Part shown: positions 2,667 through 61,098 of the stretch, one piece after another
Position numbering within the stretch: the first letter of the stretch is position 1
Layout of the letters: each line of letters begins with the position of its first letter
Source: Thamnidium elegans
Taxonomy: Eukaryota; Mucoromycota; Mucoromycetes; Mucorales; Mucoraceae
DNA: 64,000 nt
Assembly (NCBI GenBank): GCA_025201345.1
Contig: JAIXMG010000003.1
Span: 1,054,001 to 1,118,000, forward strand
Reading direction: 5' to 3'
Position numbers and translations under genes: made by a program
Notes under the pieces: model-generated
The model's input: only the letters and a program-made list of their open reading frames with translations
What the model was told of the DNA's origin: nothing
Database searches by the model: none

Positions 2667-4208
2667 TATATTTTGTATTTTCTATGTTATAGTAGTGTAT
2701 GTAGTTGTTGCTAATGCCGTTGTTACACCGGTTTTTCTTTTGATAACTGGGTATTAGAGCCTGGTAATAATGTATTTCTCTTTATATCAGTCAAGTTATA
2801 TCGTCTTTTTTTTTTAAAAAAAAAGACTAATTGAGAGCGATCATTTTAGTATCGACTGTTGGTACTACTTATTGATCGTAAACGACAAGTTACTTTTTGT
2901 ATTCTATTTTTTTTTTTTTTTTTCTTTATATATACTTATAGAATTTAATTAACAGGTGGGTGTATCGTATTTACTCCTACAATGAAACGGAATACTAATA
3001 CATCTTACGAAAATTCGATTAGAGTATAACTATAACAAAACACCAAATAATAGTGCTATCCACTAAAAGAATCTCTATTGTTACTAAATTTAGTAATTTA
3101 TATCTTGTCAAGTAATTAAAACTTACTTATTCGTAATCTACGGATGTAGTCGTAATACTAGTATTTTCCATCGATAATAACAGGTACCATGTAATGACTG
3201 TTATATAGGATATATATTTGTTAATTTTCACTCCCATAAGTTATTTTGACAGTTATCTTTACTCCCACTTATAAACTGATAACTGCGTATTAAAACGATT
3301 AAGTAATAATTTACTATATAAAAAGGAGCCCTATTTTTTTTTTTTTTTCTTAGCATAAACAAGTCTCCATTGTATAATAAAGGATTACAGAGTTTTATTT
3401 CTCTTATATTTTTATATTTTATCCCTAAATTATTACGATTATCTATTCTACATACAATAAAAAAAAAACGCTTTATATATTATTTCGCATTCAGGCTTGT
3501 TAAATAAAGAAATTTGTTACTAATAGTATATTTTATTTTTTACTGGGTCGAGTAACACTTACTTCATCTCCCTTTCTTGCTAAACTTATCTTTTTTACAC
3601 AAAAATTCAAATAGATTTATGATCTGTGTACAATATATATATCTTATTACTTTCTTTCTTTCAGGTAAAAGTATTTTTTTTTTATAAACCAAAAAAAAAA
3701 AAGTTTATGCGATAGTATTAATCCTTTATACTGTATATATATAATACATCAAAATCAAGATTGCAGGAACACAAAGAAAAAAAAAAAAAGGTTTCAGTTA
3801 TCCTTGCTCCATAAAAAAAAAAAAAAAAAAATGCCAGGGCTAAAGGATATATATAATTTTAGAAGAAACTTTGCTAAACGAACAATAACAACTACTGACA
3901 CTCTGGGTCTATATCATTTTTTTATTGTACCAATAAAAAAAAACTTTTTAGTTATATTTAATTATCGCAGTTGTTCTTTATAGGGAAAGGGTAATGTAAC
4001 CTCTAGTAATATGGTTATAACGTAGCAAGTAAAGCTTGTTTTTAATAAAACCTTTTTTTTTTTTTTTTTTGAAAAGGGGTTGGAAAGACATATTCCTTGT
4101 ACAACATGGAAAATAAATAATATAAACAAAAAGGTTTTTTTTTTTTTTTTTTTTCTTCTTTTTCCATATCAAACAACAAACAAAACGAAAAATAAAAAGT
4201 GAAGATTT
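2667..4208. other. Intergenic, AT-rich
   Basis: No coding stretch with usable splice sites was found on either strand. It contains a symmetrical T-then-A tract near 2805-2824 and several homopolymer runs; the last ~100 bases are presumably the promoter and leader of the RasGAP gene. Confidence 0.6.
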
Positions 4209-35917: not shown

Positions 35918-36397
35918 AAACACACGTTTTTTTAAAATCATATATCTTTTTCTTTCTACTATTTATTTATCACTAATAGAATTCCTTCTCTCTCTCTTTT
36001 ACATTATTTGTATTTTTTTTTCTTTCTTTTTTATATATTAACACACAAAAATAAAAAAAAGAAACTTGTGGAACATTAAAACCAAATAAATGTTTACCAA
36101 CAGGATGTAAAAACCGAAAAAAAAAAAAGGTTCAAAATAATAATAAAGGAGGCCTGTTTGATTGAATTAAACGATTTCTAGTACACCATAAAAAACAGAA
36201 GTTTCTGCCAATAATAGCTTTCTTTTGTCTTGCTTTAATTACAACGATGAGAAAACATGAGGCTAATTAGTGTTCGTGGTTCATGTTTCTTTCTGAAAAG
36301 GGCTTCTTTTAAAGAGTAGAAAGACATTCCAAACGGCTGGCGGCTGCGGGTATAATTACAGCTGGTGTACCTTAGCATAATTATGGGTGTTTTGATT
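35918..36397. other. Intergenic, 3' of HMG-CoA reductase
   Basis: T- and CT-rich 3' flank of the reductase. On the minus strand 36236-36395 an extra open stretch follows the Fanzor-like gene end in another frame and might be its original C-terminus after a frame change. Confidence 0.45.
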
Positions 36398-38860
36398 TTA
36401 ATCCATCATTATACCTTTGATATTTATGGCGGCGTTTATATCTCGGTGCCAAATCTTCTTACCATCTAAGCAAGTTTTGCAAACTTTTAAACAATAAACT
36501 ATACATTAAATGATATTAGTAAATGTACATAATTATTAGCGGGTAGTTAGACATACTCAAAGATGCGTAACTTTTTTTCTGCCAAAGAAAAAAAATAGAC
36601 TTACTCTCTATATTAGTTTTCTAGAGTGCCGTGGCATTTTGAGCATGTTATGGATGTACGGAATTCGTCTACTAATACAACTAAATATTTCCTCGCTATT
36701 GCAACCATCGTCTTCTATTAATTGATAAAAAAAATTATAAAGAGGTGTGTACAGGGTATATTTCATTATAACCTTGACAGAGACAGGTGTATTATTTTTC
36801 ATCGTAACTTGTATGCTAGCGTTACCATAAGATATGATTGGAGCCTTTTCCGATGGGACAAAGGACTACTTAGCTCCAAACTTCCTCCCCTTTTTTTCGT
36901 TTAGCCTTTGTTGATGTGTAGGTTAAATAAAAGGATTCATTACTCAAAATTTGATTTGCTACAACGTTTGAAATGTAGTCGAAAGCCATCTGTCTATTTG
37001 AGTATAAATACCTTTTCGTTTCTCTATGTCTAAATGAGACATAAATAAAAAATCCTATGTATCATAAAAAAAATATTAAATGTCATATTATTTAATGCTT
37101 TATACCAATAATATTTACTTTTTATGCGTAGATGTTACAGATATTGAGTACATGAAATAGTCTTGTAGATTTGCAGTCTTTGGGCTTTTTAATAGATCGT
37201 ATGTTTGTTGTATATTATCATTCTCTCTGTTTTTTAGTTCAACTTTTCTACACCATTCAAATCCACTCCGTACGCTTTTTAAATAAAGGTTCAATAGGCT
37301 AAAAGAATTCCTACTTTTAGAAGATTGCGCTCCCGTTATCAAGTCCCTCACCCCTAAGTATAAAGACTATTGAGTAAATTATACATATATTTATCAAGGG
37401 ATCAAACACTTACCGGGATCAACTCCTACTACGTACTTTCCCGTAAGAGAAAGTCTAATAGGCTATTTTCAAGAGTATAGACCCCTTTATGTACGGAAGA
37501 CAAACTTGCGTTTCTTTTTAATCTTCTAATTTCGTTTTTACCGGAAGATAACAACTCTATACATTTCAGTTCAAATAAGTAGTTTGTATAAAAAACGATT
37601 TAAACAATATTAACGTAGGTATAATGATTCCGGAACAGGATAACCTAGGCTATGGGTCTTTTTGAGTAAATGGTAAACAGAAGCAACACCGCTTAAAGGG
37701 AAATTTGCTATGGTATAAAAAAAAATTATAAGTAATGGTTGCGTTATATGTATAATTGATATACTACCAATGGAATGCATAGGGAGTATGTTCCATCTTT
37801 TGATTTTTTCTATATTTAGTAGGTTTACGAAACCCAACAGTTTACAACTGAATTTGATGATGAGAAGGGCGTAATTTTTTTATAGTGTCGTAATCACAAA
37901 GATTATCAAATGATAAGATATGGTTATTTAACACGAAGCATTCCTCGTATATATCTTGTACGTTTCTAAACATAATCAAATAAGTTATCAACACGGTTTT
38001 TTTTTTTTTTTTGTTAATCGCTTACGTGAATAGAGGTATCTACTACTTCCTTTTTCTCCTCTATGTACTTAGCTATGTCATCTACATCTTTATTCTGTGT
38101 AATATAATTAATAGCTAGAGAAGCTATTTTTAATGCCGTACAAACGTGTTACTATAAATGTTTTACACGCTTCAATAGTACGTGGACTTACTGAGTTTGT
38201 TCTCGTTAATATTTTTATGGTTTTTTCATGTTTGTAGTTCAAATAAAACCCCTGAAAGCTTTTTTTTAAGATAGACTCTACGTTTCGAGACAAATGTACA
38301 ATAACATCTAACAGATATACTTATTATTTTAAATCCAATAATACTTACTCTGTTTCTAGAATTTAAATTATTCGTATCACTAGCCATCAGACTATACGAG
38401 TGATTCCATAAAATTGGTGAGGTTATGTCTGGGAAAGTAGCAAGATTGTAACCAGAAGCCGCCCAACTACGAACAAGAAAATTAGCAAAATGCATAGCGT
38501 CTCTTAATATCGAAAACTCTTCTACTGTAGTTCGAAAAAGTTGTTAGGTACATTACGTTGTGTTAGATAGTTTATATATTTTTAAATAGCTTAATACATT
38601 ATTTTGTACACGTAATTACTCTATATATTTTAAACGGTACCTTCAATACCGTAGAAACTTTGTATTCTCTCGAAAAATTGTACTTTTGTAAAGGTAATCG
38701 ACGCTCTTCATCAGATTTTTTTCTTTTTTTCTTTGTAACTCCTGAAGACTCTGAAGCTTCTTCTTCGTCAGAGTTGTGGGCTTGGAAATATTTTTCTGAA
38801 AGCCTGTATTACACTTTGTACAGCAAATACTTATGAATTTGGGAACTTGTACTTGGAACT
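36398..38860 (-). pseudogene. Fanzor (eukaryotic TnpB-like RNA-guided nuclease) gene, probably decayed
   Basis: Reading the minus strand gives, in the right order, the hallmarks of a Fanzor protein. N-terminal acidic/basic region with an SV40-like nuclear signal TKKKRKK (38701-38790) and YNFSREYKVSTVLK; helical block ILRDAMHFANFLVRSWAASG (38440-38520); KIKRWNILPMHSI (37760-37805); RuvC-I GVDPGVRDLITGA, split by an intron (37350-37425); helix SPKTANLQDY and RETKRYLYSNRQMAF (36960-37180); APIISYGNAS (36810-36845); VVLVDEFRTSITCSKC (36630-36690); and CKTCLDGKKIW HRDINAAINI (36410-36470), which completes a Cys4 zinc finger inside the last RuvC motif. The locus is multi-exon. Two breaks appear: a frame change at the T7 run 37875-37881 and an in-frame TAA (36613-36615) between the zinc-finger halves. 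Exact exon joints near 36900 and 37500 are unresolved, so a still-functional gene with unseen introns cannot be excluded. Confidence 0.8.
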
Positions 38861-39959
38861 CCTTGGATGGACCCCTAAATAAGGTAGGCGTTCTTATTCC
38901 CTGGTATAGACGATGAACGGGTAGTACATGTTCTGTGGGGGGGGGGTTTCCACTTTCTTTTCCGCAGTAAATAGAAAAAGAAAATCGGCATTTATTATTC
39001 TTCTGGCATAGCTTGCTAGTGGCTTTCTTCCGTTAGTGAATTTAGAAGCGAAGAGTATGCAAGGATAGGGACCTCCATGCGGCCATACTCGGAAACGGGT
39101 CCTTTCTTTCTTAAAAAAGAAAACGGTTAGCGTCTATCCCAGTTTATATAGTCTAAATGTTTTTTAAATAAAATAAATTAAATAAGTATTCCGTTCAACT
39201 ACGTGATTATACTAACATTGAGATTTAAACAGTGATACTTTTTTTTTTAAAACCCCCCCCCCCCCTTTGCCATTACCACCTTGACAAGTCCCTCCATTCT
39301 ACTCGTGCGCTCTTCAAAAACACAATTACCACTTGAAGAAAGGGTATGGCCAAAAGGTTTAAGTATAGACAGACTGCTGAATGAGGACACAGTCTAGTTT
39401 TGCTCAAGTTGCCCTACCAACAAGACCAAACGTGACCAAATATTGTTTGTTATTTGGCGTACTTTTTGGGTAATAGTAGTAGGCCGTACTATTTACTTAA
39501 ACAGAAGCTGAACTATGCATATAGCTTTTTGTTTAATAAATCCTCTTCCAAAATTATAAAAATGTCTAAAATTTATAAAATCTTTAAATTTGAATTTTGG
39601 AAGCCACCTATTATATGCATTTGAAGTGAATACTACAAGTCGTTATTTAAATATCATTTCTGACGATTTTTAAAAGAAGCAAAAGTTTAAAACGGAGTAA
39701 AACTGGGTATTAAAAAGTACCTAAAAAAAATGACTTATGGTTCGTTTTAAATTATCGGGAAGGAGCTTTTTGTTATATATGCTGTTGGATGAAACCTATC
39801 AAAAGGTTAAGTTAGGAATTCTTTTTTTTAAAAAAAAGAAAAAGAAGGTCATGGACCATTCCATTGCCCCTGAATATGATGGATAGAAAACGTAATAAAA
39901 AATACCATTTATATGATAGAATATATATGTACACAATATTTATTATTTATTAATACTTT
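38861..39959. other. Intergenic, AT-rich with G and C homopolymers
   Basis: Holds a run of about 10 G at 38937-38946 and about 14 C at 39251-39265, roughly 310 bp apart and in opposite senses, which may mark the ends of a small degenerate element. T-then-A tract near 39820-39837. No gene supported. Confidence 0.45.
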
Positions 39960-60448: not shown

Positions 60449-60985
60449 TTAAGATGAGGGTTTATGTCCTCCTAAAAGCTTCTGGGCGATTGCTGTTATT
60501 TTGAGCCATATAAAGAAAAACGGACGAATATTCATACTAGCCATATGGTCTCTATTTCACCGTGTATCACAAGTAGAGCATTTGAGTACAAGGTGTATTT
60601 TTAAGCCGGAGCTGTTTTTTTCGTTCAAAGTTGTTCTGGTTTGGCACCTAGGACATATTTGTGAAGTCAGATATTCATCAACCATTACAACATAAGTTGG
60701 TATTTTTTTGTTTCTTTCGCGAGTCTTTAACGACTTTGGTAGGAGCAGGTACGTTTCCTCTCAAGTTACCAAACATGACAGCGCCAAAAGCAAGTACAAC
60801 AGGTTTGTTTGATTCTTCTGGTCCATCTCCAGGGGAAAGCTCCTTCCACTTCTTGTTACTATCTTCAATCACCATATGTCTGGTAGGGTCACACTTTCTA
60901 TTGCCACTTATTAGACGTCTGGATATTTCTGAGAGTGTTTGCTGTTTTTTAATATAGTTACGAAATTTAAGCTTAAGTATTTTAT
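60449..60985 (-). pseudogene. Second Fanzor fragment, C-terminal half only, broken
   Basis: Minus-strand reading gives the end of a Fanzor protein: FRNYIKKQQTLSEISRRL, KPVVLAFGAVMFGNLRGNVP, then after a frame change TYVVMVDEYLTSQICPRCQ, LKCSTCDTR, a stop, and NRDHMASMNIR. The two Cys pairs (CPRC and CSTC) form the zinc finger inset before the last RuvC aspartate, whose usual context is WNRD. Here that Trp codon is TGA (60557-60559), and the frame must shift at the T7 run 60703-60709. The RuvC-I half is absent. Sequence differs clearly from the Fanzor locus at 36.4-38.9 kb, so it comes from a different lineage of the element. Confidence 0.75.
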
Positions 60986-61098
60986 TTTTTTTAAATTAAA
61001 TTTGTACGAGCATTTATTACACGTGACTGTACAAGTAAGATACATAATGGAAAAAAGTGGGGAGATGGCGTAAATATTTTGGAGTAAAAGGGTGTTGC

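Follow-up and report, generated by a model that had tools for sequence, protein, structure and literature searches.

The window, a 64-kb stretch of Thamnidium elegans DNA at positions 1054001–1118000 of contig C23, harbours a decayed, end-less copy of a dispersed, probably Fanzor1-type family, which was likely moved in trans by a Mutator-like (MULE; IS256/MuDR-type) transposase. By direct reading of the sequence, all motifs listed in the initial annotation were identified on the minus strand, in the order given there and in exons that are joinable by splicing, including the RuvC motifs. The locus had been placed at 36398–38860, which is close to the actual family match from 38761 to 36296. The accompanying description of an AT-rich desert did not hold, and a stretch of unusual composition was rejected, as the GC content at 36–39 kb (0.30–0.33) is like that of most of the window.

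The N-terminal part of the Fanzor pseudogene (37519–38761, minus strand, as all features of the locus) contains the nuclear-localisation-like TKKKRKK at 38736–38716, and has two internal gaps in comparison to its siblings. An alignment of the window copy and its siblings, 17 copies altogether, divides the C-terminal half into seven exons and six GT...AG introns. Exon 1 (37414–37518) carries a 1-nt deletion at 37469 and ends in G-V-D-P-G (RuvC-I), directly followed by the first intron (37354–37413, GTAAGT...CTTAG). This intron, which had been predicted at precisely this place, is real: the five siblings that cover this place (L039, L040, L041, L043 and L044) have it at the corresponding alignment position, and L047 aligns with its 3′ half. 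Exon 2 (37289–37353) reads VRDLITGA from 37353, and its final 11 nt are deleted together with most of intron 2. Exon 3 (37119–37274) was placed by the alignment of copies, and exon 4 (36773–37054) has deletions of 1, 1 and 2 nt. Exon 5 (36605–36714) encodes VVLVDEFRTSITCSKC, with the alternative catalytic Glu, the first CxxC and an in-frame TAA near its end, and is followed by a remnant of exon 6 (36557–36578) from which 13 nt are deleted. The remaining part of exon 7 (36334–36498) includes CKTCLDGKKIWHRDINAAINI within 36498–36399 and comprises CKTC...HRDINAAINI, that is, the second CxxC and RuvC-III, with a 22-nt deletion at 36399 and then a stop. The truncated right end (36296–36333) is without the distal arm of the family terminal hairpin and without the terminus.

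As an observation apart, the introns of the C-terminal half (window 37414–36499 and siblings) have diverged between subfamilies half as much as fourfold-degenerate sites, or less (24/201 vs 21/81 for window–L040, 20/167 vs 26/49 for L046–L040), and this slow divergence persisted when splice ends and T-runs were masked. In the young L040 group the two rates lay closer together (11/276 vs 7/107 for L040–L041). Constraint and AT mutation bias are equally good readings of the low intron divergence.

The read-through of the window copy, i.e. the C-terminal half translated exon by exon with X at the breaks, was searched against profiles of Fanzor and TnpB, as the initial annotation had proposed, and matched Pfam PF07282 (TNB / OrfB_Zn_ribbon) with an E-value of 5.4e-9 and 36.5 bits over a cut-off of 26.3. 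The match to the NCBIfam TnpB model was weak (22.8 of 100 bits, E=5e-5). The split RuvC and Cys4 zinc-finger signatures claimed for the locus were borne out by the PF07282 match and by motif spacing that fits the rules given for Fanzor proteins. For the pattern D-X(125,275)-[TS][TS]-X-X-C4 zinc finger-X(5,50)-RD, as described in PMC3627910, the read-through has 190 residues from the Asp of DPG to Thr-Ser, then TS-IT-C, two CxxC, and 8 residues from the second CxxC to RD. For DPG at RuvC-I and a Glu six residues ahead of the zinc finger, as described in PMC10711439, it has GVDPG and DEFRTSITC, with 6 residues from the Glu to the first Cys.

Wider relationships were found with family profiles. 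The window composite protein returned nothing at 1e-3 among 7885 candidates from a set of 5.8 billion proteins, and among PDB sequences its best matches were SpuFz1 (E=0.22) and LexA (0.36). All nine members of the family profile A3 match PF07282 at E-values no higher than 1; the best reaches 3.4e-10, and L039, the first in the profile, reaches 0.0012 with a score below the cut-off. From the PDB sequences, profile A3 returned SpuFz1 (0.0014) and an antibody chain (0.48), and from the 7996 best candidates scored in the large protein set it returned at least 18 relatives. These include proteins of T. elegans (with gene tags of two assemblies), Rhizopus microsporus and Mucor bainieri. When Rhizopus and Mucor relatives were added to the family (profile A5), PpFz1 was matched at 9.4e-5 and SpuFz1 at 0.032, with nothing else in PDB up to an E-value of 1. 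An AlphaFold model of the protein P0024 was unusable (mean pLDDT 33.8). Because the PF07282 match exceeds its cut-off and the family profile finds solved Fanzor1 proteins, the window gene is, by its sequence, of Fanzor type, a kind of protein predicted to cut DNA under RNA guidance. Regarding Fanzor1 versus Fanzor2, the two best PDB matches are Fanzor1 proteins and the genomic context is not that of IS607.

The window copy itself is a dead, broken gene, a fossil as judged from its reading frames. Its 296 aligned codons contain 5 in-frame stops. Within the exons, 1, 11, 1, 1, 2, 13 and 22 nt have been deleted, two further deletions remove 3 nt each, and two bases are inserted. Larger gaps in comparison to L040 and L044 were located near 38340 (ca. 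280–300 bp, a region which L051 likewise lacks) and near 37617 (ca. 370 bp), and the copy has neither the element part upstream of the first Fanzor codons nor a complete right terminus. Since start, right end and internal pieces have been lost, and frameshifts and stops have accumulated, it is not a working OMEGA system. Thus, from the proposal of a mobile or formerly mobile OMEGA system residing at the locus, former mobility stands in view of the dispersed family and its duplications, and the resident system falls with the stops, deletions and missing ends. Continued use of the locus as a host-domesticated Fanzor gene would agree with RuvC-I, -II, -III and zinc-finger motifs that are still readable, but a full-length protein is refuted by the sequence, and a working host gene was rejected on the stops, frameshifts and large gaps as highly improbable.

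A DNA search of the genome (34.1 Mb, 64 contigs) with window 36200–39150 produced 77 matches. One is the window copy, 67 rows fall at 29 other places and cover the Fanzor part (query about 390–2855), and nine rows are restricted to query 1–204. The other copies that the initial annotation had proposed to look for were accordingly found, as related copies or fragments at 29 further places. The nine remaining rows represent a separate dispersed repeat at window 38946–39150, just upstream of the Fanzor relic, with nine weak places. No intact copy was present among the 21 of the 29 places that were read with flanks (20 and L062). At least one stop was found in 11 of the 17 aligned copies, window included, in the part scored, and the six stop-free aligned copies (L039, L044, L045, L048, L053 and L058) were all truncated or gapped.

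Most substitutions between copies fall on third codon positions (39/29/66 at positions 1/2/3 for window–L040, 54/37/119 for window–L047). The dN/dS ratio was 0.08–0.35 in 12 of 13 pairs with the window copy, with L045 as the exception (0.81; 145 codons, dS 0.21), and 0.34–0.76 in the young group around L040, among pairs with the window copy, L040, L041 or L047. These values fit a Fanzor protein that was kept by selection during the spread of the family, each copy then decaying neutrally. A chance likeness of AT-rich sequence to Fanzor motifs was ruled out, to near certainty, by the PF07282 match (E=5.4e-9), the 29 further places and this codon-position bias.

The genome yielded 21 PF07282 matches. 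A second, different Fanzor family is present in the window itself at 60527–60995 on the minus strand, in ORF pieces with one in-frame TGA and a PF07282 score of 43.7 bits. The ORF of L003 is close to this gene, and has as its best relative a T. elegans protein (93%).

The better-kept copies of the family combine a constant right end, comprising the Fanzor gene and a terminal hairpin, with a left end of two kinds. They terminate in ...TTTTAGGACTGCCC, and the last 49–59 nt form a two-part hairpin in the 14 copies whose right end could be used; the window copy, L043, L044, L045, L047 and L057 were omitted as truncated or altered, and L050 and L051 offered no right end for this set. Across the 14 copies, 91.9% of the cells were paired, in comparison to 45–69% in slid controls; covariation and pairing in the same copies were no better than in shuffles. 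Single folds of the right end reached a z-score of −2 or lower in 8 of the 14 (best −6.7, L053), and RNAalifold predicted no pair over 19 right-end stretches. The guide RNA had been expected at 36.1–36.6 kb, a zone in which only the beginning of the family right end was found, and window 36296–36420 folds no better than shuffles (z −0.10). According to PMC10711439, the guide-RNA scaffold of published Fanzor1 is predicted to include the inverted repeat and the target duplication, and by this analogy we infer that the right-end hairpin of the present family may likewise be a guide-RNA part. Two further observations concern local structures: L054 has, by the Fanzor stop codon near 3398–3438, a palindromic insert of ca. 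40 nt that folds as one long hairpin and is absent from the other 18 rows of alignment A1, and the sole Rfam match in the window is a tRNA gene at 2594–2666 on the plus strand.

In the first kind of left end (L040, L052, L056, L058 and L062), an ORF (MSDIPIYKYTPLPALEV...) lies ahead of the Fanzor start, with WRKY matches (E=0.016 and 0.031) below the cut-off. A search with this left part returned 17 matches at 14 places, nine beside Fanzor parts and five not, and three of the latter (L059–L061) were read. Two of them, L060 and L061, continue as a MULE catalytic domain, matched by PF10551 below its cut-off (E=0.0047 and 1.8e-4), and L060 matches the IS256 model at 1.7e-8 with 33.8 of 150 bits; these transposase matches are weak and come from decayed genes. 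The ORF stops at codon 192 in four of the five Fanzor copies, and three MULE copies read through there. We take the left part to be a MULE (IS256/MuDR-type) transposase fragment, its N-terminal third, kept as an ORF of its own (ORF-A). Within Fanzor copies, ORF-A has a dN/dS of 0.35–0.95, which suggests mostly decay. A three-point estimate gave about 0.25 on the Fanzor-side branch, and since this branch may include a period that preceded the join with Fanzor and the within-copy pairs are higher, the value is no proof of selection inside the Fanzor element.

In the second kind (L045, L047, L050, L051 and L053) the ORF lies in reverse and corresponds to the tail of a related transposase. Its CxC...CxH pattern we take to be SWIM-like, and Pfam returned no match for the ORFs of L051 and L053. 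Among the twelve matches obtained with this ORF, the one at C1:61434–62527 immediately follows a MULE catalytic part of the same strand. We take both kinds of left part as pieces of related MULE transposase genes. The MULE catalytic part itself was in no Fanzor copy read, and was seen in copies without Fanzor. Because the Fanzor copies keep no more than the N-terminal third or, in the other kind, the reversed tail, the elements appear MULE-derived and MULE-like in movement and not autonomous MULEs.

Target-site duplications of MULE / MuDR elements are 8–11 bp long, mostly 9. Exact duplications were identified for 4 of the 15 right ends tested (9, 9, 8 and 8 bp), and these sizes agree with the MULE / MuDR range; the window copy has no ends to compare. 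The exact repeat adjoins the left terminus CGATTTA in L039 and L056, where it measures 9 bp, and in L052, where it measures 8 bp; L040 has an exact 8-bp repeat next to a left end that is damaged. By chance, a given position would show an exact 9-mer about once in 4^9. No duplication stood where the family match starts at the other 11 right ends, and 9-bp matches of L041 and L053 at 2.7 and 0.6 kb distance were taken as chance. The two ends are alike as inverted repeats in L053 and L058 (0 of 1000 flank controls were as good), and such similarity is absent from L052 and L056 (968 and 970 of 1000 controls as good).

These termini bear on two other routes of spread. One-ended, Helitron-like movement of the Fanzor module, with the MULE pieces as bystanders, would account for a constant right end with a hairpin and for left ends that are variable and often truncated, and variable 5′ parts are described for MCi-2 and Helitron-linked Fanzor1 in PMC3627910. 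Such movement is nevertheless unlikely, given exact 8–9 bp duplications at a defined left terminus, also in MULE-bearing copies, and matching inverted ends in L053 and L058. A Fanzor element may alternatively have jumped into a MULE copy, the composite then being copied with MULE parts that merely offer ends. It is the whole unit, not the Fanzor part, that is flanked by duplications, which leaves this scenario similarly doubtful even though the same Fanzor module occurs beside MULE parts of two kinds and in both orientations, and ORF-A within Fanzor copies mostly decays (dN/dS 0.35–0.95). The preferred reading is that the family likely spread by borrowing a MULE transposase, because several copies adjoin MULE transposase gene pieces.

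Several copies have lost most of the nuclease gene and kept the right-end side. One deletion junction is common to L058 and L062, with nearly the same in L056, and another to L050 and L054. Junctions common to copies suggest that these Fanzor-less derivatives may have been mobilised in trans. The matches within the two pairs stop before the flanks (those of L062 were compared over ca. 300 bp). L056, L058 and L062 are on contig C27, and L050 and L054 on C62; local copying could explain derivatives sharing junctions on the same contig, but L056 has its own duplication. As a related observation, the public T. elegans gene model P0023 (INT48 tag) joins a MULE-like ORF start to a Fanzor zinc-finger end, apparently spanning a deletion derivative like L052.

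In the active past of the family, a full MULE transposase would attach to the ends of the element, cut it out and reinsert it at another place. The site left empty would then be cut by Fanzor carrying RNA from the right-end hairpin and the flank next to it, and repair from the sister copy would restore the element. In one subfamily, the truncated MULE protein beside Fanzor might bind the ends and either tame or help the transposase. The window copy is capable of none of these steps. More tentatively, and with rather low probability, the element would be a two-protein system, in which the transposase is reduced to a putative end-binding part handing the ends to an outside transposase, Fanzor and its right-end RNA re-cut emptied sites, and left ends are swapped.

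PMC3627910 (2013) describes Fanzor1 from Rhizopus, Phycomyces and Mucor as residing in MuDr-like elements that have 9-bp duplications and, by that description, no MuDR transposase. ROr-4, PBl-3 and MCi-4 (Bao and Jurka 2013, PMC3627910) resemble the T. elegans family as Mucorales elements with Fanzor1, MuDR-like ends and 9-bp duplications, and, as far as described there, without a complete MuDR transposase. Unlike these elements as described, the T. elegans subfamilies keep the MULE N-terminal third or the reversed tail. MCi-2 of Mucor circinelloides (PMC3627910) is described as alike in its constant 3′ part with Fanzor, its several 5′ kinds and copies without clear inverted repeats, but has 11–12 bp duplications and a partial Crypton transposase where the T. 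elegans family has 8–9 bp and MULE parts. PpFz1 (Parasitella parasitica, PDB 9cf0) and SpuFz1 (Spizellomyces, 8gkh), the best PDB relatives of the family profile, share the order of RuvC and zinc finger at remote sequence similarity, and are intact and active proteins, whereas the window copy is a pseudogene. The ghost loci of Spizellomyces (Saito 2023, PMC10432273) are, as described, likewise multiplied with the right end kept and without the Fanzor protein; the T. elegans derivatives, in contrast, are internal deletions of a Fanzor element. In a literature search that covered few subscription papers, PMC3627910 was the sole paper found joining Fanzor and MuDR, and none was found joining Fanzor with Mutator-like or Thamnidium. 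New in comparison to print are the putative DNA-binding ORF retained from a MULE, left ends of two kinds, and the deletion derivatives.

The family bears on how eukaryotic Fanzors keep changing transposon partners. One genome presents a constant Fanzor and right-end module joined to left ends from different MULE parts, together with transposase copies that could have provided the function now missing, and with shrunken derivatives that lack Fanzor and have multiplied. The family thereby suggests a route for partner exchange, and for movement in trans, that is concrete enough to test. If the two-protein reading were true, left ends taken from either side of a MULE would be how Fanzor modules change transposon partners.
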